DNA of 37,099 nt from Synergistaceae bacterium (GCA_018436785.1 JAHDKR010000045.1:1-37099), one strand, 5' to 3'; positions 652 through 35,532 are shown, numbered from the stretch's first letter. A program made the numbers and translations. The notes: generated by a model not told the origin, from the sequence alone.

Positions 652-2448
652 ATGCCTTCCCGAGACGATGCCGCAAAAACGGAAGAAATGAAGCTGGAGT
701 GGGAGAAGATGTTCTTCTTCTGCGACGATCCTGCCCGGACGCGCCGCTATTTCCAGATTATCAAGGCTGTTTTCGACAATACCGTAGAGGGTATCGTCAT
801 CACGGACGCCAACGGGATAATCCGGATGGTCAACGCGGCCTTTTCGACGATTACCGGATACGCTCCGGAGGAGGCGCTTGGCAAGAACCCCCGGATTTTG
901 AAGTCCGACCGGCACCCCCCGGAGTTTTACGAAAACTTCTGGAAACGGCTCGTCAATGACGGGAAGTGGGAGGGGGAGATATGGAACCGAAGAAAGAACG
1001 GGGAGGTCTACCCCGAGTGGATGGTCTGCTCCGCCGTCTACGACGAGGAGGGGAATGCGGAGCACTATATCTCCGTATTCAACGACCTTTCCGAGGTGAA
1101 GTTCAAGGACGCCCAGATAGAGCTCCGCTCCAACTACGACTATCTCACCGGTCTGCCGAACAAGGAGATGTTCCAGAGCCGTCTCTCCGGCGAACTCGCC
1201 CACCGGGAGAGAAACAGCGAGAGACTCGCGTTGCTTGTCTTCGACATCAACCGTTTCAAGAATATCAACGATACGCTCGGTCATTTCGTCGGCGATTCGG
1301 TACTGCGAAAAGTCGGCAGTCTGCTCTCCGAGTGCATCGGTTCAGGCGGATTAGTCTCCCGTATCGGCGGGGACGATTTTCATATTCTGCTCCCGGATGT
1401 CCATACCCCGGATGAAATTGTCGGCCAGGTCAAACGGGTCTTCGAATGTCTCAGCGACCCCGTGGATGTTGAAGGGCATCGTCTCTTTTTAAGCGCGAGC
1501 GTCGGGATCAGCGTCTTTCCCGAGGACGGCAGGGATGTCGACGACCTGCTCAAACGGGCGGATATCGCGATGGGGAAGGCAAAGGAGAGCGGAATCAGCA
1601 GCTACCGATTCTTCACGGAAGAGCTTGGAAGACGGGCGTCGCTGAAGCTTACCCTGGAGAACGCGCTGCGCGAGGGGCTCGAAAGGAATGAGTTTCACCT
1701 TCACTATCAGCCCAAGTACTGCATTCGCCGGGGGGCTTTCTCCGGGGCGGAAGCGCTCCTGCGCTGGAACAGTCCGGAAGGCCCCGTGCCGCCCTCCGAC
1801 TTTATTCCGCTTGCGGAGGAGACGGGGCTCATCCTCTCTCTGGGAGAAGAGGTCTTCAGGAAGGTGTGCCGCCAGATAGCCGAATGGAGGAGTCGCGGCT
1901 ATTCTCCCGGCGAGATCGCCGTGAATCTTTCGGCCCGCCAGTTTCATCAGAAAGGGCTTCTCTCGAGGATGAAAGGTATTCTTGGCGAGTACGATGTGCC
2001 GCCCTCTCTGCTCGGGATCGAGATCACCGAGTCCGGCATCATGGAGAACCTCATGGATTCCATCGCTGTGCTTTCCGGGATGAAAGACTTGGGGATGACC
2101 GTGTACGTGGACGACTTCGGCACCGGGTATTCGTCGCTGAACTATCTTAAACGCCTTCCCATCGACGTACTGAAGATAGACAAGAGTTTTATCGACGGCG
2201 TTCTGGAGGATCCCAACGACGCCGCCATCACCAGGGCCGTCGTCGGCATAGCCCGTTCGCTGGGGCTGCGCGTTGTAGCGGAAGGGGTGGAGACTCCGGA
2301 GCAGCTTGATTTTTTGCGCCGCAACGGATGCGACGAGATCCAGGGGTACTTGCTGAGCCGGCTTCTTCCGCCGGATGCCTTTGAAAAATTCGGGGAGAGT
2401 GAAATTCCTCTTTGTTTCAACGGACTCTCAGGTTATAATCACTGTTGA
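652..2448 (+). CDS. PAS-GGDEF-EAL c-di-GMP signalling protein
   Basis: This 598-residue protein has no membrane segment. Its domains are a PAS domain (about 35-150), GGDEF (about 160-325) and EAL (about 335-585). The GGDEF signature is GGDDF (239-243), with Asp replacing the catalytic Glu, and no RxxD inhibitory site sits before it, so cyclase activity may be weak or lost. The EAL domain looks fully active: EALLRW (EAL at 367-369), NLSARQF, EITES, DDFGTGYSS, KIDKSF, AEGVET and QGY are all present. The likely role is a cytoplasmic phosphodiesterase that hydrolyses c-di-GMP to pGpG, tuned by PAS and perhaps by GTP binding to the GGDEF domain. A GAGGTGA ribosome site overlaps the stop of the upstream gene. 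The next operon has its own candidate promoter inside the end of this gene. Confidence 0.93.
   Translation: MPSRDDAAKTEEMKLEWEKMFFFCDDPARTRRYFQIIKAVFDNTVEGIVITDANGIIRMVNAAFSTITGYAPEEALGKNPRILKSDRHPPEFYENFWKRLVNDGKWEGEIWNRRKNGEVYPEWMVCSAVYDEEGNAEHYISVFNDLSEVKFKDAQIELRSNYDYLTGLPNKEMFQSRLSGELAHRERNSERLALLVFDINRFKNINDTLGHFVGDSVLRKVGSLLSECIGSGGLVSRIGGDDFHILLPDVHTPDEIVGQVKRVFECLSDPVDVEGHRLFLSASVGISVFPEDGRDVDDLLKRADIAMGKAKESGISSYRFFTEELGRRASLKLTLENALREGLERNEFHLHYQPKYCIRRGAFSGAEALLRWNSPEGPVPPSDFIPLAEETGLILSLGEEVFRKVCRQIAEWRSRGYSPGEIAVNLSARQFHQKGLLSRMKGILGEYDVPPSLLGIEITESGIMENLMDSIAVLSGMKDLGMTVYVDDFGTGYSSLNYLKRLPIDVLKIDKSFIDGVLEDPNDAAITRAVVGIARSLGLRVVAEGVETPEQLDFLRRNGCDEIQGYLLSRLLPPDAFEKFGESEIPLCFNGLSGYNHC
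2412..2439 (+). promoter_or_regulatory. Candidate promoter for the ODP operon
   Basis: A perfect -10 hexamer TATAAT (2434-2439) is preceded at 16 bases by TTGTTT (2412-2417). It lies inside the last codons of the GGDEF-EAL gene, about 85 bases before the di-iron protein start. The -35 match is weak (3 of 6). If used, the transcript would begin near 2446, directly at the leader dyad. Confidence 0.45.
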
Positions 2449-2524
2449 GACGGGGTGCTCCGTAGAATAGAATATACCCCGGAGAAACGTCCGTCTCCTC
2501 TGCATACGGAAGGAGTTGGTTGGA

Positions 2525-3298
2525 GTGCAGCACGTGAGTTCGCTTACCCTCTACGACCAGGGGGATCACAAGTTCATCATGCTCGGCTGGGAGGAGCAGG
2601 AAGAAGAGGTCGCCGTCCAGACGAACCAGTACGTCATCTCTTCCGGCGGCGAGGTGGTGCTGCTCGATCCGGGCGGAGCGCACGTCTTCCCGAGGGTGTT
2701 GGCGAATGTGGCCGAGATGTTCGAACTGAAGGATATCCGGCATATCTTCTACTCCCATCAGGATCCGGACGTCTCCTCGGGCATCACGCTCTGGCTGTCG
2801 ATGGCCGAGAAGGCGACGGTCTATATCTCCGGGCTGTGGGTGCGCTTCCTTCCGCACTTCGGCATCTACGACGTGAAACGCATCAAAGCCATTCCCGACA
2901 AGGGGGAAACGCTCTCCCTGTCCAACGGCAAGAAGATGACGGTCATCCCTTCTCATTTCCTCCACTCTACAGGATGTTTTTCCCTGTACGACCCGACGTC
3001 GAAGATTCTCTTCTCGGGCGATATCGGCGCGGCGATCTTCCCGCGCGGAACCCGCTACCCCGTGGCCGAGGATTTTGACGCGCACCTGAAGTACATGGAG
3101 GGGTTCCACAAACGCTATATGGCCTCGAACGCCTTCTGCCGCAGATGGGTGAAGATGGTCTCTTCGCTCGATGTGGAGCACATCGCCCCGCAGCACGGCG
3201 CCCTGATCAAGGGGAGGGAGAACGTGAAGAAGTTCCTCGCGTGGTTTGAAAACCTCTCCTGCGGCGTGGATGTCCTCGACGACATCTACGGTCGCTAG
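2525..3298 (+). CDS. ODP-type oxygen-binding di-iron protein (MBL fold)
   Basis: This 257-residue protein is a single metallo-beta-lactamase-fold domain like that of flavodiiron proteins but without a flavodoxin domain. The expected di-iron ligands are all present at nearly the spacing of flavodiiron proteins: H78, D80, D82 (in SHQDPD), H147, D166 (FSGDIG) and H224 (APQHGA). ODP proteins of Treponema denticola and Thermotoga maritima bind oxygen and iron and signal through a partner chemoreceptor that lacks a sensor domain. The gene directly downstream here is exactly such a receptor, which supports a sensor role over an enzymatic one. I chose the GTG at 2525 because AGGAG (2511-2515) sits 9 bases before it; the upstream TTG at 2516 would abut the ribosome site. 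An ordinary hydrolase or NO/O2 reductase is the alternative. Confidence 0.85.
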   Translation: MQHVSSLTLYDQGDHKFIMLGWEEQEEEVAVQTNQYVISSGGEVVLLDPGGAHVFPRVLANVAEMFELKDIRHIFYSHQDPDVSSGITLWLSMAEKATVYISGLWVRFLPHFGIYDVKRIKAIPDKGETLSLSNGKKMTVIPSHFLHSTGCFSLYDPTSKILFSGDIGAAIFPRGTRYPVAEDFDAHLKYMEGFHKRYMASNAFCRRWVKMVSSLDVEHIAPQHGALIKGRENVKKFLAWFENLSCGVDVLDDIYGR

Positions 3299-3315
3299 CC
3301 GGGGAGGGTCGGGGG

Positions 3316-4158
3316 ATGGAGCATAAATTTTCACAGGTAATCCATCAGCTTGGAGGGGCGTACTTCGCCAACACGCTTATGAACTCCTTCATGGCGCAGC
3401 TCGACGAAGTGCTGGTGAGCCGCGTCAGGGCAGTCGAGGAGGAGATCGACGCGACCTCGGAGCGCTTCGTCCAGTTGAGCGCCCTGCTCGGGGATCTGTT
3501 GAAAGAGTTCGAAAAGAGCGGGAAGGAGACCAGAGAGAGCGTCGGACGCATCACCCAGATGAACGAGGACCTGGGGGAGGAGCTGAAACGCTCCGGCACC
3601 GACCTCGACGGCATGAGCGAGAACGTCTCCCGGACGGTGGACGCCACGTTCGGCACTCTGGAGTCCTTCCTGGAAATAGAGAAGATGTCCAAGGAAATAC
3701 AGCGCATCGCCAAGCAGACGAATCTGTTGGCGCTCAACGCTTCCATAGAGGCCGCACGGGCCGGCGAGCACGGGCGGGGGTTCGCCATCGTGGCGAAGAA
3801 CGTCCAGGAGCTCGCCGCGGAGACCAAGGCGGCTTCGGAGTCCATCGGCTCCAAGGTGGGCGAGATCTCCGGCGCGGTGCAGAACGCCATGGAGGATATC
3901 CGGCGGGTGAGCGAGATGTTCGACGTCATCCGGCGTTCGCTTTCGACGTTCACCGACTTCCTGTCGACCAACAAATCGTTCATGGAGCGCATGGAGCATA
4001 CCATGGCCGACGCGGGGGACAAGGTCCGCCGCAGTTCCGAGGAGATGGACAACTCCGTCGAGGTGATGGGGAACGCGTCGAAGAAGTTCGGTTCGATGGC
4101 GGCGACCATATCCGCGATCGTCCTTGCCCAGAAGAACCTGAAGCAGATACGACTTTAG
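3316..4158 (+). CDS. Soluble methyl-accepting chemotaxis receptor, no sensor domain
   Basis: This 280-residue protein is almost entirely helical coiled coil, with no transmembrane segment and no recognisable ligand domain. The conserved hairpin tip that contacts CheA and CheW lies at about 129-163, with IAKQTNLLALNASIEAARAG nearly matching the consensus. The segment after it reads AIVAKNVQELA rather than the usual VVADEVRKLA, so some contact residues differ. The first 30 residues are the only part that could bind a partner. Starting 17 bases after the di-iron protein, it is very likely that protein's signalling partner, and it is followed by an HD-GYP gene. The GGGAGG ribosome site fits the ATG. 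No CheA, CheW, CheR or CheB gene is in the window, so it would have to use a core array encoded elsewhere. Confidence 0.9.
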   Translation: MEHKFSQVIHQLGGAYFANTLMNSFMAQLDEVLVSRVRAVEEEIDATSERFVQLSALLGDLLKEFEKSGKETRESVGRITQMNEDLGEELKRSGTDLDGMSENVSRTVDATFGTLESFLEIEKMSKEIQRIAKQTNLLALNASIEAARAGEHGRGFAIVAKNVQELAAETKAASESIGSKVGEISGAVQNAMEDIRRVSEMFDVIRRSLSTFTDFLSTNKSFMERMEHTMADAGDKVRRSSEEMDNSVEVMGNASKKFGSMAATISAIVLAQKNLKQIRL

Positions 4159-4193
4159 CCGGAAGTTTCGGCGGGAGGGAAGGCGGGGTTGCC

Positions 4194-5366
4194 GTGCGGG
4201 TGCTGAAAGATGTAGATGTCGACGAATTGCACCTGTTCCGCGGACGGGTCGTCGAAGATGTGGTGTCGTCGACCGGTTCGCTTCTTTTACCGAAGGGGAG
4301 CGAGATCCAGGCGGTTCTGGAGTCCGTTCCCGGGATTACAAAGACGCTCAAGCGCTGGGGCGTCTATAAGGTTATGCTCGACGTCTCCTTCAACATTTCG
4401 GAGGAGGACTTCAACAAGATAATCGAGAATATCGAGCCGAAGATCCGTGTATTGGAGGCCGCGCTCGCACAGAATACAATTACGCAGGTCGACGAAGTCT
4501 ATCGGCGGATCTCCGAGAACGGTTCCCTTGGGGAAGGCGCCTACATGCTGGCGAGGCAGGCCGCGTTGCTGACCGAAGAGGTTACTCGCGCTCCGCAGAT
4601 TTTGCTCTGTTTGGGGCGGGTGCGCGACAGCGACGAGTACACATTCGTCCACTCACTCAACGTGGGGCTGCTTTGCGGTTATCTTGCCGGACGTCTGAAA
4701 CCCGGCGACCGCGAGTTCGCCGCCTCGATGACGTACGGCGGACTCCTTCACGACCTCGGTAAAGCCAAGGTTCCGCAGCAGGTGCTCAACAAGCCGGGAA
4801 AACTGACGGAGAAGGAGTACGAGATGATGAAGGCGCACTCCATCTACGGAGATGAAATCGCCAGGTCATCTGGTATCAGCGACGTCCGCGTGCTTTCTGT
4901 CATCCGGAATCACCATGAGCGTTGGGGAGGGCATGGGTACCCCGACGGTCTGCAAAAGAACAGTATCCCGCTGTTTGCCCGCATCGCGGCGGTTGCCGAT
5001 GTCTTCGACGCGCTCACAGCAAAGAGAGTGTACAAAAATCCGCTGTCGAGCCGCGAAGCGGTATCGATGATTCTGGAATCCTCCGAAAACGACTTCGACA
5101 AGGGCGTCGTCCGGGAGTTGCTGCTCTCCGTGGGACTCTATCCGGCCGGCACGCTGGTCGAGCTTTCGGATTTCAGCGTGGGAGTGGTGGTCGGCGCCAG
5201 AAATACGGATCTCTTCCGCCCCCAGGTGAGTGTCACCATCGACGGGAAGGGGCGCCGCGCTCCGGAAGGAACCATCGTCGACCTGGGATTGCAGCAGGAC
5301 CTCTTTGTCCGCCGGGCGCTCGACGACGTAGGGAAGGGCGTTGCGTACAGCGAAAAAGCAGGGTAA
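4194..5366 (+). CDS. HD-GYP domain c-di-GMP phosphodiesterase
   Basis: This 390-residue protein has an N-terminal region of about 140 residues without a recognised domain, then an HD-GYP domain (about 145-330) and a C-terminal tail of about 70 residues rich in beta strand that resembles the tail of other stand-alone HD-GYP proteins. Catalytic features are intact: HDLGK (HD at 186-187), the following KAHS, NHHERW (240-242), HGYPDGL (247-252) and DVFDALT. It should hydrolyse c-di-GMP in the cytoplasm. It lies 35 bases after the chemoreceptor gene, so it is probably in the same operon as the oxygen sensor and could be a second output of it. The start is GTG at 4194; another in-frame GTG at 4200 is possible. 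It ends 19 bases from the convergent helicase gene, with no clear terminator between. Confidence 0.92.
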   Translation: MRVLKDVDVDELHLFRGRVVEDVVSSTGSLLLPKGSEIQAVLESVPGITKTLKRWGVYKVMLDVSFNISEEDFNKIIENIEPKIRVLEAALAQNTITQVDEVYRRISENGSLGEGAYMLARQAALLTEEVTRAPQILLCLGRVRDSDEYTFVHSLNVGLLCGYLAGRLKPGDREFAASMTYGGLLHDLGKAKVPQQVLNKPGKLTEKEYEMMKAHSIYGDEIARSSGISDVRVLSVIRNHHERWGGHGYPDGLQKNSIPLFARIAAVADVFDALTAKRVYKNPLSSREAVSMILESSENDFDKGVVRELLLSVGLYPAGTLVELSDFSVGVVVGARNTDLFRPQVSVTIDGKGRRAPEGTIVDLGLQQDLFVRRALDDVGKGVAYSEKAG

Positions 5367-5385: not shown

Positions 5386-7029
5386 TCAGGAGAAGAGCGA
5401 TCGTTCGATCTCTCCTATCTTCTCCTCGAACCCGTAGATCGTCGGATCGATTTCGTCAACCGTATTGTTTAACTCTTTCATCGACCGGAAGGCAAACCCT
5501 TTCGGCATTCTGTTCGCGAATCGTTTCACCTTGAGCAGCGCCTGGAGGTAGTTCCTTTCAAAGGGAAGGATCACCTGCGCGGCCAGCAAAGCGCTGGGCG
5601 ACTGCTCCGTGTGAAAAAGAAACGCCATCTCCAGGTTCTCCTCAATGTCCATCTCATCGTACCAGAGCGAGGCAAGCGTCTTTCGAAACTTCTTCCGCTC
5701 GTGGTGGTGGACCATTTTCGACATTGCCCTGTCGATACGCTTCATTCCGGAGCGGATCGCGTTGCCGACGAGAAACTCGTCCTGCTGCGGCAGGGAGAAG
5801 CATGCGATGAACTCGGCTTCCACTTCAGGGAGGACCTCTTTGCGGAGCAGCCTGCCGAAAGATGGGCGCAGCGAGACGTTCGCCTTCTCCGGGGCCGCCT
5901 CAAGCAGCTCATTGAAGATCTCCTTCGTTGAAAACCCCCGCCGCTCGAACGGCGATTTTGCAAGCCACGTGACATACCCCGGGTCGAAGAGCCCCTTCCG
6001 TCCTGCCCGTCCCGCCATCTGAAGAAACTCGTTCTTTGAAATAGGCGCGTCCGAGTGGTAGTGGACAAGCTGAGCAAATACGGCGGTTTCGGCAGGGAGG
6101 TTGACGCCAAGCGCAAGCGCGTTCGTTCCGCAGACCACGTCGAGGATTCGCTCTCTGAAGGCCGCCTCCATCAAGATTTTTTCCTTGGGAAGCATTCCTC
6201 CGTGGTAGATGCCGACCCCGTTGAAGAGCGGCTGCTGAATCTTCGGCACGCCCAGAATCGCCGCAAGTTCAGCGAGGCGTTCGCGCTTGGAGGAATGAAT
6301 CCGCTTCCTCTGGCGGGCGATCAGGTAGGCGAGCTCCATCGCCCCCTTTTGTGAAAAGAGGAAGACCAGCGCGTCTTTGACGCTGTCGATGTACGCAGGG
6401 CGTTCCGGCGTGAAGAGGAGCTGCGTCTCGCGCTTCGCGTTTTCGAAGAGAAGAAACGACCGTTCAGTCACTCCTTCAAGGTATTGTACGACCGAGGAGG
6501 CGCCTCCGAGGGTTGCGGACATGACGAGGACGGACGTTGTGGCGTCGGTGTTCCGGATGCCGTCGATGTAGGTTCTCGCCCGGTCCGAATCGTCGAAGAT
6601 GTAGTGGAACTCGTCCACTATGAGTTTTTGTCCGGGGACGCGGGCGTACTTCAAGGAATAGATCTCCTGCGTGCAGCAGATTATGCCTGCGCCTTCGTTC
6701 TTCTTGAAGTCGCCGGTTTCGATTCCCACGTCGAGCCCGAGTTTCCTGAGATCGAGATAGCGTTCATTGCTCAGCGCCTTTATCGGGGCGGTGAAGATGA
6801 TGCGTCCGTCCCCGGGAGGAAGGACCGTTCCGGCCTCGTCAAGTATGCCCGCCCAAAGATAGGCCACCAGCGTTTTTCCGGATCCGGTAGGGGCCGAGAG
6901 CACAGCGCTTGTCTCTCGAATCGCCTGAAAGGCGTCCAGTTGCCACGGATAAAAAGTTATATGCGCCAGCGTTGAAACTCCTCTCGAAAGTGCGTAGGGT
7001 TGTTCTTCCAGAAAGATATGGTACCACAT
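5386..7029 (-). CDS. Ski2-like DEAD/DEAH-box superfamily 2 helicase
   Basis: This is an ATP-dependent nucleic-acid helicase of about 545 residues. Counted from the longest frame (start 7077), Walker A APTGSGKT lies at about 62-69. It is followed by the Walker B box DEFH, motif III MSATL and motif VI QMAGRAGRKG, so both RecA-like domains are complete. A helical C-terminal region of about 170 residues follows. DEFH and the layout place it near Ski2/RecQ-like RNA or DNA helicases; the substrate is unknown. The start is uncertain. ATG at 7077 overlaps the divergent gene. ATG at 7029 has a poor ribosome site. A CTG at 6969 has GAGAGGAG 8 bases upstream and gives the protein a natural start at AHITFYPWQLDAF. 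I give 7029 as a compromise. Confidence 0.85.
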   Translation of the reverse strand: MWYHIFLEEQPYALSRGVSTLAHITFYPWQLDAFQAIRETSAVLSAPTGSGKTLVAYLWAGILDEAGTVLPPGDGRIIFTAPIKALSNERYLDLRKLGLDVGIETGDFKKNEGAGIICCTQEIYSLKYARVPGQKLIVDEFHYIFDDSDRARTYIDGIRNTDATTSVLVMSATLGGASSVVQYLEGVTERSFLLFENAKRETQLLFTPERPAYIDSVKDALVFLFSQKGAMELAYLIARQRKRIHSSKRERLAELAAILGVPKIQQPLFNGVGIYHGGMLPKEKILMEAAFRERILDVVCGTNALALGVNLPAETAVFAQLVHYHSDAPISKNEFLQMAGRAGRKGLFDPGYVTWLAKSPFERRGFSTKEIFNELLEAAPEKANVSLRPSFGRLLRKEVLPEVEAEFIACFSLPQQDEFLVGNAIRSGMKRIDRAMSKMVHHHERKKFRKTLASLWYDEMDIEENLEMAFLFHTEQSPSALLAAQVILPFERNYLQALLKVKRFANRMPKGFAFRSMKELNNTVDEIDPTIYGFEEKIGEIERSLFS

Positions 7030-7045
7030 CTTTCGTGGTATTATA
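7022..7045. promoter_or_regulatory. Overlapping divergent -10 elements with adjacent dyad
   Basis: TATAAT reads on the minus strand at 7045-7040, and TATTAT on the plus strand at 7039-7044. Next to them is the dyad TACCAC-N7-GTGGTA (7022-7040). No good -35 is visible for either direction. The arrangement suggests shared control of the helicase and the plus-strand gene at 7076. Confidence 0.35.
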
Positions 7046-7075
7046 AAGTGAATCAATCCGGCGGAGGTGTTGCTC

Positions 7076-7540
7076 ATGGCAGAGTTTGTGATAGTGGTAC
7101 AAGAAGAGGACGATGAGGCGCGCCAAGCGTGCGTCTACGGACTTGAACCGCGTACGCCCTTTCTTTCAAAAAGAAGAGAAGCAGCTTTCTGGAAAACGAT
7201 AGGGGAAGAGGTCACAGAAGCAGTTGCATCCTCCGGCCTTCCCTTCGATGCGGCGATGCTCTTTATAAAAAAAGCCAGGCGCGCCTCCATGAAGAGAGTG
7301 TCCCTCTGCGCTCTTGCGCACGACGCCGGAGAAGACGGATGGCGTGTGCTCACATCACCCTCCAAGGCCGGAGAGCAGGCGTCTCCGATGACGGAGGACG
7401 AGAAGCTTCAGTTCGAAGAGGCGCGTCTCCTTGCCGAGGAGATCTCAAAACGCAACAGAGACGCTATTCCCGACACGGAGGACGAGATCATATCGGCAGA
7501 GGAGTTCGAGGATATGCTTCGGGGAGAGTCCGTCGATTAA
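7076..7540 (+). CDS. Uncharacterised acidic protein
   Basis: This 154-residue soluble protein belongs to no family I recognise. The N-terminal half contains basic stretches (SKRREA, KKARRASMKR) and the last 50 residues are strongly acidic, ending in EDEIISAEEFEDMLRGE. There is no signal peptide or membrane segment. The start is ATG 7076, with GGAGGT (7063-7068) 7 bases before it; a GTG at 7067 would overlap that site. The gene is divergent from the helicase, and their start regions overlap, so they may be controlled together. It ends 90 bases before the phosphate-type transporter. Ordinary codon use and a strong ribosome site make it a real gene. Confidence 0.75.
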   Translation: MAEFVIVVQEEDDEARQACVYGLEPRTPFLSKRREAAFWKTIGEEVTEAVASSGLPFDAAMLFIKKARRASMKRVSLCALAHDAGEDGWRVLTSPSKAGEQASPMTEDEKLQFEEARLLAEEISKRNRDAIPDTEDEIISAEEFEDMLRGESVD

Positions 7541-31596: not shown

Positions 31597-32610
31597 GTGC
31601 TTCCTATGCCAAGTCAGAAGATCCTCGTCGTCGAGGACTCGCTCAGTCAGCGAATGATGATCTCCCGCCACCTCCGTAACTGGGAGTACGAGGTGCTGGA
31701 GGCCGCCGACGGCGTAGAGGCGTTCACCGCGTTTCGGCAGCAGAGCCCCGCGATCATCATAACGGACCTCGATATGCCGGAAATGAACGGCTTTCAGCTT
31801 ATTGAGGAGATTCGCAGGAAGGAGATAGCCCGTACGTACATCATCGTCCTCAGCGCCTCCGACGACAAGTCGAGCGTCGTTTCAGCCCTGGCGCTGGGCG
31901 CGGACGACTATCTCGTGAAGCCGTATCACCCCGATGAACTGCGCGTGCGCCTGACAGGAGCCGAGCGCGTGCTGCGCCTCCAGAACCAGGAGCTGCTCAT
32001 CTTCGCCATGGCACAGATGGTGGACACCCGAAGTCCCGAGACAGGAGCCCACCTCGACAGAGTGCAGTATTTCAGCAGGCGCATAGCGGAAGAGCTTGCC
32101 GCGGAAGGAGATCCGCTTGTTACGGCTTCGTGGATAGCGCAGCTTTTTTCCCTTTCTCCGCTTCATGATATCGGCAAGATCGGCATCCCCGACGCCATCC
32201 TGAACAAACCGGGCAGACTGACTCCCGAAGAGTTTGTCATTATGAAAGAGCATGTTACCATCGGCGCCTCGATCTTCTCGCGGATCTACGAACGTACTCA
32301 CTATGCGCCGTTCGGATTCGCCATCGATATTATCCGCTGTCATCACGAGAAGTGGGACGGCAGCGGATACCCCGACGGGCTCGCGGGAGAGAGCATTCCG
32401 CTCTGCGGAAGGATTGTCGCTCTCGCCGACGTGTACGACGCCATCAGCAGCAAGCGTGTCTACAAACCATCCTTCCCGCGGGAGCAGTGCTGGGATATTA
32501 TCAACAGGGGCAGGGGAAGCCATTTCGATCCGCGGCTTGTCGACATATTCAACCGCAACGAGGATTACTTCTGGAATATCGTCGAAGAGCTACGGGATAT
32601 CGACGATTGA
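31597..32610 (+). CDS. Response regulator with HD-GYP output (c-di-GMP phosphodiesterase)
   Basis: This 337-residue protein has a receiver domain (about 7-122) and an HD-GYP domain (about 135-325). In the receiver, acidic residues VVEDS, the phosphoryl acceptor D57 (TDLDMPEMNG) and the lysine in LVKPYHP are present. The output domain has HDIGK (HD at 190-191), HHEKWDGSGYPDGL (GYP at 257-259) and ADVYDAI, all intact. Phosphorylation should switch c-di-GMP hydrolysis. The hybrid kinase gene begins 33 bases downstream and ends in an Hpt domain that can phosphorylate a separate receiver, so the two form a likely phosphorelay pair. GTG 31597 is preferred because AGGTGA lies 6 bases before it; ATG 31606 is the alternative. 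Confidence 0.94.
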   Translation: MLPMPSQKILVVEDSLSQRMMISRHLRNWEYEVLEAADGVEAFTAFRQQSPAIIITDLDMPEMNGFQLIEEIRRKEIARTYIIVLSASDDKSSVVSALALGADDYLVKPYHPDELRVRLTGAERVLRLQNQELLIFAMAQMVDTRSPETGAHLDRVQYFSRRIAEELAAEGDPLVTASWIAQLFSLSPLHDIGKIGIPDAILNKPGRLTPEEFVIMKEHVTIGASIFSRIYERTHYAPFGFAIDIIRCHHEKWDGSGYPDGLAGESIPLCGRIVALADVYDAISSKRVYKPSFPREQCWDIINRGRGSHFDPRLVDIFNRNEDYFWNIVEELRDIDD

Positions 32611-32643
32611 GTTCGCCGTAGGTGACGGGAGGGGGATCTTTTT

Positions 32644-35532
32644 ATGTACGGACAGTTCTCCCGTTTTGTCGGGCGTATTTCGCTCCGGAGGATCATTCGC
32701 ATCGCTTTTGTCTTTCAGATACTCATTCCTGTCTCTTTCTTGGGGTGGATGTTCTTCAGAACGTCCCGGGAATCGGTCGAAGCGCTCTCTATGCGCCTGG
32801 GGAGCGAAGTGGCGGCGCGGATCGCGGAGCATCTCCAGTCGTATATGGCTGTCCCTCTTCTCGTGAACTCTCTCAATGCGGACGCGCTGGAGTCGGGGAG
32901 GGTCGACATCGCCTCTCCCCGGATCTGGCAGCCCTTTTTCACCGAACGCATCAGGGCCTTTCCGTCAATAGCGTATACCTTCATCGGCACGCCCCGCGGA
33001 GAGTTCTTCGGGGCGCGCCGCTTCAAGGAGAATGTCGAACTCTTCGTAGCAAGTCCCGAGACAACGGGAGGCGCTTCCGTCTATTACTCCGTCGATCCCC
33101 GGGGGATGACGGGAGACGAAATCATCTCCTACCCCGGCTTCGACCCCCGCACCCGTCCGTGGTATACAGCGGGCGAACACGCCGACACTCCCGTCTGGAG
33201 CGAAATCTACCGCCATTTTGCACTCGATGACCTGGCGATTACCGCCGTCCAGGCTCTTCGCGGGGAGGACGGCTCTCTGGTCGGAGTGCTCGGCGTCGAT
33301 CTCCCCCTCTCCGCTATCAACAGCTTTCTCAGGGAGCTGAAGGTGGGCGCCGAAGGACAGATTTTCATCCTCGACAATGACGGAAACATTGTGGCGGATT
33401 CGACTGTCGATAAGCCGTTTCACATCCGCAACGGCGCCTTTTCCCGGATTGCGGGCGTGGCTTCTCCCAATCCGGCAATAAGGGCGGCCGCTGAAAGGAT
33501 GGCGCGCGAAGAGCAGGGAGAGCGCACAGGCCGAATGTTCTCCGTCGAAAACTCCGCAGGTATTTCCGAGTACGTCCGGACACGCCCGTTCCGATCTCTC
33601 GGTCTCGACTGGAAGATCGCCGTCGTCATTCCGGAGAAGGAGTTCATAGGGTCTGTGCAGCGTATGGCCCGCTCGGCGTTTCTGATCACCCTGGCTGCGC
33701 TTGGTCTTTCTTTGCTGACGGCGTTCTGGGTTTCCCGCTGGATATGCCGTCCCCTTTCGGATCTTGTGGAATCGGCGAAGGCTATCACCCGCGGCGAGTG
33801 GCGCGCTCCGTTCGTCCTGAAGCGGGACGACGAGGTGGGAGAGCTCTCCCGCTCCTTCGCCCTGATGTCGAAACAGCTTTCGGAGGCGTTCTCCGGCCTT
33901 GAAGAGAAGGTCCGCTTACGGACGGTCGAACTCGAACAGAAAAACCGGGAGCTGACCGAGGCCAAGGCGGTTTCGGAGTCTCTCGCTGAGGAGGCGAAAG
34001 CGGCGAGCCGCGCGAAGAGCTCGTTTCTGGCCTCCATGAGCCATGAAATCCGCACGCCGATGAACGCAGTGCTCGGGTTAAGCGACCTCGTGCTCTCAAC
34101 GCCGCTCTCAGAGGAGCAGCGAGAACATCTTTCTCTTGTGCAGACATCTGCCGAGTCGCTGCTTGGTATTCTTGACGATATTCTCGATCTAGCGAAGATA
34201 GAGGCGGGAAAGATGTCGCTGGAGAACCGGCCGTTCCGTCTGCGTCCTCTCGTGGAGCAGGTGGGAGCGCTCATGCGCCCTCGCGCGGAGAAAAACGGAG
34301 TGGCGCTTGGAGTGTCGGTAGCGCCGGAGCTCTCCGACGCCTTCGAGGGAGATCCGCTCCGCGTGCGGCAAATTCTGATGAATCTTGTCGGCAATGCCGT
34401 AAAATTCACCTCCGAGGGCTCTGTGGAGATCGTCGTGACGCTCGCGGGTGGGGATGAGGAGCAGGCGCAGGTTGCGTTTGCGGTCAGCGACACCGGCCCG
34501 GGGATTCCGCAAAGCAAAGTGCATCTTCTGTTTGACGATTTTACCCAGTTGGATGGTTCTTCGACCCGAAAACACGGAGGGACCGGGCTCGGCCTTGCGA
34601 TATCGCGCAGCCTCGCCCGCCTGATGGGCGGCGATATCACTGTGGAGAGCGAAGTCGGCAGGGGGAGCGTCTTCCGCTTTTCTCTTCCCCTTCTTCGCTG
34701 CTCCGGAGAGATTGTTGAGGAACATGAGGGTACGGAAACGGATTTCTCATCGATGAAGGGTAACGTTCTTCTTGCCGAGGATAACGCCGTCAATACGAAG
34801 ATGACTGTCGCGATGCTCAAAAAAACAGGACTCACGGTACGGCACGCTCAAAACGGCCGGGAGGCGGTCGAGATGTGGCGCAGCGAACCGTTCGATCTGA
34901 TCCTCATGGATTGCGAGATGCCGGTGATGGATGGATTGGAGGCGACGAGGAAGATTCGCTCCGAAGAACAGGACGGAAAGAGTATTCCTATTGTAGCGCT
35001 CACCGCGTATGCGATGAAAGGGGACCGGGAGCGCTGTCTGGAGGCGGGCATGACGGAGTATATCTCCAAGCCCATTCGGTCCCGCAAGCTGTACTCGTTG
35101 CTCGCCAGATTTCTCGGGACACCCTCTCCCTCTCTGCACACCGACAGCGAAGAAACGCCCGCGCGGTTTTCTGCCGAAAATGGAGAGCGGGAGCGCTGGG
35201 AGAGCGGGTTCGCCGAACTGCTCCTCTCTCTCGACGGAGACCGGGAAGCGTTGGCGGAGATGGTGGAGGCCTTCTTTTCCGAAGTCCCGGAGCTGCGCGG
35301 CTCGCTTCGGAGCTCCCTGGAAAAGGGCGATTCCTCCGCAGCAGCGCGCGCGTTGCATAAACTCAAGGGAGTACTTGGCTATCTCATGGGAGGAGAGGAC
35401 ATCTCATTATTCCGCGTTCTTGAGATTGATGCCAGGACGGAGGGTTTGAAAAAGGACGATCCGCGCCTTCGTGAACTGCACGACCTGCTCGACCGGTACG
35501 AACTCTTTCTTCGTGAAGCGGCTTCCCGCTGA
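32644..35532 (+). CDS. Hybrid sensor histidine kinase with CACHE sensor, REC and Hpt domains
   Basis: This 962-residue protein has a first membrane helix (about 18-38), an extracytoplasmic double-CACHE sensor (about 40-335), a second helix (about 344-362), HAMP, a coiled coil, HisKA with H467 (MSHEIRTPMN), and a HATPase domain with NLVGNAVKF, DTGPGIP and GGTGLGLAIS. A receiver domain follows with phosphoryl acceptor D756 (LMDCEMPVMDG) and lysine in ISKPIR, then a C-terminal Hpt domain with H905 (LHKLKG). All parts of a phosphorelay, His467 to Asp756 to His905, are intact. The natural final acceptor is D57 of the REC-HD-GYP protein encoded just upstream. The CACHE ligand is unknown; such domains often bind amino acids or carboxylates. 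GGGAGG precedes the ATG. Confidence 0.94.
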   Translation: MYGQFSRFVGRISLRRIIRIAFVFQILIPVSFLGWMFFRTSRESVEALSMRLGSEVAARIAEHLQSYMAVPLLVNSLNADALESGRVDIASPRIWQPFFTERIRAFPSIAYTFIGTPRGEFFGARRFKENVELFVASPETTGGASVYYSVDPRGMTGDEIISYPGFDPRTRPWYTAGEHADTPVWSEIYRHFALDDLAITAVQALRGEDGSLVGVLGVDLPLSAINSFLRELKVGAEGQIFILDNDGNIVADSTVDKPFHIRNGAFSRIAGVASPNPAIRAAAERMAREEQGERTGRMFSVENSAGISEYVRTRPFRSLGLDWKIAVVIPEKEFIGSVQRMARSAFLITLAALGLSLLTAFWVSRWICRPLSDLVESAKAITRGEWRAPFVLKRDDEVGELSRSFALMSKQLSEAFSGLEEKVRLRTVELEQKNRELTEAKAVSESLAEEAKAASRAKSSFLASMSHEIRTPMNAVLGLSDLVLSTPLSEEQREHLSLVQTSAESLLGILDDILDLAKIEAGKMSLENRPFRLRPLVEQVGALMRPRAEKNGVALGVSVAPELSDAFEGDPLRVRQILMNLVGNAVKFTSEGSVEIVVTLAGGDEEQAQVAFAVSDTGPGIPQSKVHLLFDDFTQLDGSSTRKHGGTGLGLAISRSLARLMGGDITVESEVGRGSVFRFSLPLLRCSGEIVEEHEGTETDFSSMKGNVLLAEDNAVNTKMTVAMLKKTGLTVRHAQNGREAVEMWRSEPFDLILMDCEMPVMDGLEATRKIRSEEQDGKSIPIVALTAYAMKGDRERCLEAGMTEYISKPIRSRKLYSLLARFLGTPSPSLHTDSEETPARFSAENGERERWESGFAELLLSLDGDREALAEMVEAFFSEVPELRGSLRSSLEKGDSSAAARALHKLKGVLGYLMGGEDISLFRVLEIDARTEGLKKDDPRLRELHDLLDRYELFLREAASR

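Follow-up and report, generated by a model that had tools for sequence, protein, structure and literature searches.

In Treponema denticola, an oxygen sensor of the ODP family serves chemotaxis, and the locus described here raises the question of whether such a sensor also governs the turnover of cyclic di-GMP (c-di-GMP). The window, a stretch of 37,099 nucleotides from a Synergistaceae bacterium (GCA_018436785.1 JAHDKR010000045.1:1-37099), makes up contig C109 of a draft genome totalling 3.33 Mb, with a completeness of 82.6%. On its plus strand, genes for a PAS-GGDEF-EAL protein, an ODP, a soluble chemoreceptor and an HD-GYP protein follow one another with gaps of 76, 17 and 35 bases, such that the ODP-receptor pair is flanked on both sides by c-di-GMP genes. 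A first-pass annotation of the sequence had proposed that the ODP controls both the kinase CheA and c-di-GMP breakdown by the HD-GYP protein. The reading we favour, with a probability of roughly 0.55, is that a known module of ODP and sensorless receptor, serving aerotaxis or iron taxis, is set in a c-di-GMP turnover cluster, where coupling would arise from co-expression and a shared target, with the ODP not acting on the enzyme.

The sensor-receptor pair and its neighbours

The ODP gene (positions 2525-3298, plus strand, GTG start at 2525) encodes a predicted oxygen/iron sensor of 257 amino acids with a di-iron metallo-beta-lactamase fold, which matches the ODP family, PF19583, at E 5.9e-77 (258.4 bits against a curated cut-off of 27.2). 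The six ligands named in the first-pass annotation, H78, D80, D82, H147, D166 and H224 (numbered from the GTG at 2525), are all present exactly as claimed and, together with Gln223 beside H224, are unchanged in the ODP sequences 6qrq and 6qnm from the PDB (65% and 53% identical). Gln223 corresponds to the glutamine at the metal site of the Thermotoga maritima ODP that has been described as an unusual ligand (PMC7785958). In 183 of the 188 ODPs in the alignment, all of H78, D80, D82, H144, H147, D166, Q223 and H224 are present; four deviate at position 144 alone and one is truncated. The Pfam scan of the protein gave ODP and Lactamase_B as the sole matches and no flavodoxin domain, which rules out a flavodiiron reductase. 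By analogy with characterised homologues, the protein is expected to bind oxygen and Fe(II).

The receptor gene (3316-4158, plus strand; 280 amino acids) starts 17 bases downstream and encodes an MCPsignal protein (E 3e-25, Pfam) in which the hairpin tip of the signalling domain, near residue 145, is intact. As had been noted from the sequence, no ligand domain was found, and there is no hydrophobic or transmembrane segment (top 19-residue hydropathy, 0.84). The closest relatives of solved structure are 3g67 and 3g6b (E 2.5e-32, with the 3g67 match spanning residues 44-251), known as Tm14 of T. maritima, the partner of the ODP in that species.

The idea that this pair is an input to chemotaxis agrees with its genomic setting. 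The source genome encodes 18 receptors with an MCP signalling domain, flagellar rod genes and one CheA (P2, dimerisation, HATPase and CheW domains; G000:C165), which lies in an operon of the order PilZ-CheB-CheA-CheC-CheD-(402 amino acids)-sigma28. Of 188 searchable Synergistota genomes, 40 carry an ODP and 148 do not; CheA was found in 38 of the former and 92 of the latter (Fisher p 3e-5, kinship uncorrected). In three members of the window's family (G028, G030 and G037), flagella, CheA and ODP are all absent together. Judging from the characterised homologues, the pair probably controls CheA. The PilZ-domain gene directly before cheB-cheA (L337:3-566, contig C165) possibly encodes a c-di-GMP receptor acting on the flagellum. 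Elsewhere, in Desulfurella acetivorans (L144), the ODP-receptor pair is immediately preceded by a complete CheA gene, and ODP is therefore inside a chemotaxis operon there.

The HD-GYP gene (4194-5366, plus strand) begins 35 bases after the receptor gene and, as previously noted, is intact. Its product of 390 amino acids comprises an N-terminal domain, the HD-GYP domain (residues 146-303), which matches HD_5 at E 1.9e-30 (106.3 bits against a cut-off of 27.2), and a C-terminal beta domain. Residues H153, H186, D187, K190, H215, H240, H241, E242, the GYP triad at 248-250 and D269 are invariant among 24 aligned HD-GYP sequences, and the motifs point to a phosphodiesterase. The bridging Glu that defines the tri-nuclear subtype, exemplified by PmGH (4mcw), is replaced with Tyr149 in all 24 aligned sequences; a two-metal site is therefore to be expected. 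This substitution, together with the best sequence relative of solved structure, the cyclic GMP-AMP (cGAMP) phosphodiesterase V-cGAP3 (5z7c), would fit a protein with a different cyclic dinucleotide as substrate, 3'3'-cGAMP for example, or one that only binds its ligand, in which case the cluster would not be about c-di-GMP breakdown. We consider this very improbable, given that all HD-GYP motifs are intact, that the neighbouring gene encodes both GGDEF and EAL domains, and that the close structural matches of the AlphaFold model (mean pLDDT 85) include, besides Bd1817, PA4781 with its bimetallic site and the c-di-GMP-bound DvhD. The N-terminal domain matched no family at a threshold of 0.001, and domain scans of the protein found neither a receiver nor a CheW domain, nor any other domain recognised as a coupling element.

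The upstream gene (652-2448, plus strand), overlooked in the first-pass annotation, ends 76 bases before the ODP gene and encodes a PAS-GGDEF-EAL protein of 598 amino acids (Pfam EAL, E 1.9e-73; GGDEF, 7.2e-44). The HD-GYP protein is thus not the sole c-di-GMP enzyme at the locus. The EAL motifs are canonical (EALLRW, NLS, EITE, DDFGTGYSS, KID and EGVET), and the GGDEF signature reads GGDDF. Its place just before ODP is conserved across genera g1, g2, g3 and g7.

Within the 3' end of this gene lies a promoter-like pair on the plus strand, TTGTTT (2412-2417) and TATAAT (2434-2439) separated by 16 bases, which coincides with the position, 2412, from which the first-pass annotation had counted the operon. 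The pair is kept in six genomes of two genera (g1 and g2). Its -10 element, TATAATCA, and the Shine-Dalgarno region GGAAGGAGTTG, with AGGAG at 2511-2515 (plus strand), 9 bases before the GTG start, are identical across these six genomes, whereas the intervening sequence diverges. Because of this conservation amid divergent sequence, we propose that ODP, receptor and HD-GYP have a transcription start of their own, which suggests expression partly separate from that of the GGDEF-EAL gene. A second site from the sigma-70 scan (2445-2473, TTGAGA-17-TAGAAT) was set aside, being unconserved in relatives. At its other end, the cluster is bounded by a convergent DEAD-box helicase gene (5386-7077, minus strand).

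Gene order in Synergistota and loss of the sensor

Conservation of the gene order ODP-receptor-HD-GYP among relatives was a check suggested with the first-pass annotation, and it gives a mixed picture, with sporadic occurrence elsewhere. ODP adjoins a receptor in 37 of the 38 distinct Synergistota loci, the remaining one being cut by a contig end. The HD-GYP gene lies downstream of the receptor in nine of the 40 ODP-carrying genomes, which represent four genera of one family (g1, n=3; g2, n=4; g7, n=1; g3, one of two), but is absent there in the other 31; it was not found downstream of the pair in g5, g8, g9 or other Synergistota families. In four further ODP-positive Synergistota, an HD-GYP domain is encoded upstream of ODP, as GGDEF-HD-GYP, and in family f5 a CHASE4-PAS-GGDEF-HD-GYP gene is directly upstream. 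Other genera of the window's family, some with ODP in the genome, have the HD-GYP relative elsewhere, often near genes resembling those of 2-oxoacid:ferredoxin oxidoreductases (as judged by reading the sequences). The HD-GYP tree groups the g1, g2 and g18 copies, and the helicase gene adjoins HD-GYP in g1, g2, g3, g7 and g18, whether ODP is present or not.

Two genomes of the window's own genus, G041 and G042, separate the components of the cluster. Both encode GGDEF-EAL, HD-GYP and the helicase in this order, with the ODP-receptor pair missing and all motifs of the HD-GYP protein kept. In G041 (L079), the 117-base gap between GGDEF-EAL and HD-GYP holds a 33-base stretch that is identical at 25 of 33 positions to the last codons of the receptor gene and reads AARKNLKDLRV-stop, compared with LAQKNLKQIRL-stop; its score was reached by none of 20,000 shuffles and none of 70,334 other real positions. 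This remnant shows that the ODP-receptor pair was deleted in G041 and that ODP-receptor-HD-GYP is the older gene order in the genus. CheA was not found in G041, the genome of which is 94% complete. The HD-GYP protein, intact where the pair is gone, therefore needs no ODP, is separable from both ODP and CheA, and is not an obligatory ODP partner. The proposal that it serves as an output of ODP is thus not supported, given its survival of the deletion, its absence downstream of the receptor in 31 of the 40 genomes, and the lack of a recognised coupling domain.

The same genomes bear on a second possibility, namely, that the HD-GYP gene belongs with the upstream GGDEF-EAL gene, whereas the ODP-receptor pair either came in between or disappeared as one block, with no functional link of ODP to c-di-GMP here. 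The direct succession of GGDEF-EAL and HD-GYP in G041 and G042, before the same convergent helicase, fits this scenario, as does the location of HD-GYP elsewhere in other genera of the family, including ODP-positive ones, and the 22 HD_5 genes of the source genome make chance adjacency plausible. We nevertheless regard it as rather unlikely, because the synteny is held across g1, g2, g3 and g7 although HD-GYP identity drops to 44%, because the receptor remnant marks the order with the pair in place as the older one in the genus, and because c-di-GMP genes are more frequent near ODP than near control receptors (17 of 90 against 2 of 60 loci; see below for the survey and its limits).

Under the reading of co-expression and shared target, the ODP would bind Fe(II) and oxygen and would signal via the receptor to the genome's one flagellar CheA. 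The HD-GYP protein would be expressed from the same promoter region, such that phosphodiesterase dosage would rise with the sensor, and both outputs, CheA and the phosphodiesterase, would bear on swimming, with the enzyme working independently of ODP. Co-transcription of the three genes and an effect on motility are accordingly predicted parts of this scheme. Several observations weigh against it: the HD-GYP gene could have a promoter of its own, its sporadic appearance beside ODP could reflect the sheer number of HD_5 genes (22) in the genome, and six Nitrospirota genomes in which ODP adjoins GGDEF-EAL in the absence of a receptor suggest a more direct action of ODP on c-di-GMP enzymes.

c-di-GMP enzymes beside ODP in other phyla

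These Nitrospirota genomes were identified in a survey of 187 distinct ODP loci across phyla, in which open reading frames (ORFs) were called mechanically and counts were not corrected for kinship. An HD-GYP gene was found beside the ODP-receptor pair in a metagenome-assembled genome of Thermotogota (L119), in Nitrospirota (directly in L130, past a second receptor in L132 and L136, and upstream in L308) and in one Treponema (L164, past genes reading as MCP-CheR-CheB). In about eleven Nitrospirota loci, the pair is followed by a large PAS-GGDEF-EAL gene, either directly or past one small ORF. In six more (L312, L315, L316, L317, L318 and L334), ODP overlaps or abuts a GGDEF-EAL gene (by 3 to 21 bases) and has intact ligands but no adjoining chemoreceptor, so that a direct pairing of ODP with c-di-GMP turnover is possible.

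In the immediate flanks of ODP, 39 c-di-GMP genes are on the same strand and two on the opposite one, compared with 251 and 107 for all flank genes (Fisher p 5e-5, kinship uncorrected). The label for a c-di-GMP neighbour changes 12 times on a quick tree of ODP. A c-di-GMP gene occurs within 1.5 kb of 17 of 90 ODP loci, compared with two of 60 ordinary receptor loci from the same groups analysed by the same method. The control and the orientation bias weaken the explanation by chance neighbours but, not being corrected for kinship, lend support short of proof. On the other side, 155 of the 187 loci have no same-strand c-di-GMP gene in the immediate flanks. The ODP-receptor pair is abundant in Thermotogota but almost never has such a neighbour; the link is therefore not ancestral to the module. 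We also rejected a single HD-GYP family travelling with ODP, as the neighbours differ in architecture: a 390-residue protein with its own N-terminal domain in the window, two-HD proteins in L119, L130 and L136, and CHASE4-PAS-GGDEF-HD-GYP in family f5.

These data bear most directly on the dual output that had been proposed at the outset, whereby an iron-peroxo form of ODP, either by itself or by way of the receptor/CheA array, would regulate HD-GYP, and possibly GGDEF-EAL, and so set both CheA activity and c-di-GMP breakdown. The recurrence of same-strand c-di-GMP genes beside ODP in Synergistota (f1 and f5), Thermotogota, Nitrospirota and Treponema, with its 39-to-2 bias and 12 changes on the tree, speaks for such regulation, and so do the receptor-less pairs of the six Nitrospirota genomes and the precedent of Pseudomonas aeruginosa, where the phosphodiesterase Pch owes both its localisation and its activation to CheA (PMC3861689). 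For the window, however, we judge it unlikely: in G041 the HD-GYP protein outlasts both the ODP-receptor pair and, apparently, CheA; it has no recognised coupling domain; the HD-GYP types beside ODP vary by lineage, so that no conserved interface is evident; and most ODP loci (155 of 187) do without a same-strand c-di-GMP neighbour. A broader proposal, that ODP sensors feed repeatedly and directly into c-di-GMP turnover besides CheA, would have ODP operons with HD-GYP, GGDEF-EAL or GGDEF-HD-GYP built independently in at least four phyla, and some Nitrospirota ODPs working on GGDEF-EAL without a chemoreceptor; we advance it tentatively, with more doubt than confidence.

The survey also revealed tandem ODP genes ahead of the receptor in two Thermotogota loci (L284 and L288). 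In Nitrospirota loci L320-L325, ODP is followed by a gene of 270 amino acids (a UbiE-type methyltransferase in L320), and the immediate flanks contain neither a receptor nor a c-di-GMP gene.

Relation to known systems

The module of ODP and sensorless chemoreceptor is itself already known, having reportedly been described by Muok et al. in 2019 (PNAS 116:14955) for TDE2498-TDE2496 of Treponema denticola. That work is cited here through PMC7666581, PMC7319448 and PMC6978683. According to the first of these, the T. denticola ODP senses oxygen for chemotaxis and the receptor TDE2496 can modulate CheA (PMC7666581). The window shares with the T. denticola and T. maritima modules the adjacent genes, the di-iron ligands including Gln beside the last His, a receptor without ligand or membrane domain, and CheA in the genome, but differs in the flanking PAS-GGDEF-EAL and HD-GYP genes, and its oxygen binding and CheA control are predicted. 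That an ODP gene may share an operon with further signalling genes, or be fused to a signalling domain, was noted before in the TREND case study of the 2019 work (PMC7319448). Part of the general idea was thus already in print; the window contributes a cluster of four genes, conserved within one family of Synergistota, and the survey adds that ODP has come to lie beside c-di-GMP enzymes repeatedly and independently. Literature searches returned nothing on Synergistota in combination with c-di-GMP chemotaxis or HD-GYP.

Three other systems resemble parts of this arrangement. Bhr-HD-GYP (PMC8846402) likewise links a non-haem iron site for redox or oxygen sensing to an HD-GYP phosphodiesterase, but as a single fused polypeptide with a hemerythrin fold, whereas in the window the two parts are encoded apart, with a receptor gene separating them, and the sensor has a metallo-beta-lactamase fold. 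The CheA-Pch system of P. aeruginosa (PMC3861689) also ties the chemotaxis machinery to a c-di-GMP phosphodiesterase; Pch, however, has a PAS/GAF-GGDEF-EAL architecture and is recruited by CheA, with no ODP and no operon shared with a sensor. DosP-type GGDEF-EAL phosphodiesterases connect oxygen with c-di-GMP breakdown, and the GGDEF-EAL protein of the window matches the corresponding model at E 4.5e-112, far below the curated cut-off; DosP itself senses by a haem-PAS domain within the same protein.

The coupling of oxygen avoidance to the decision between motile and sessile life in strict anaerobes has been little studied. A non-haem iron-oxygen sensor with genes that repeatedly associate with different c-di-GMP enzymes would offer a path, amenable to testing, by which oxygen and iron could set both the direction of swimming and the level of c-di-GMP. 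The ODP/GGDEF-EAL pairs of Nitrospirota, which are the best support for direct control, could be tested with two purified proteins.

At 31597-35532 of the window, a gene for a receiver-HD-GYP protein precedes one for a hybrid histidine kinase of Cache-HAMP type that also has receiver and Hpt domains; the two are likely a second c-di-GMP phosphodiesterase system.

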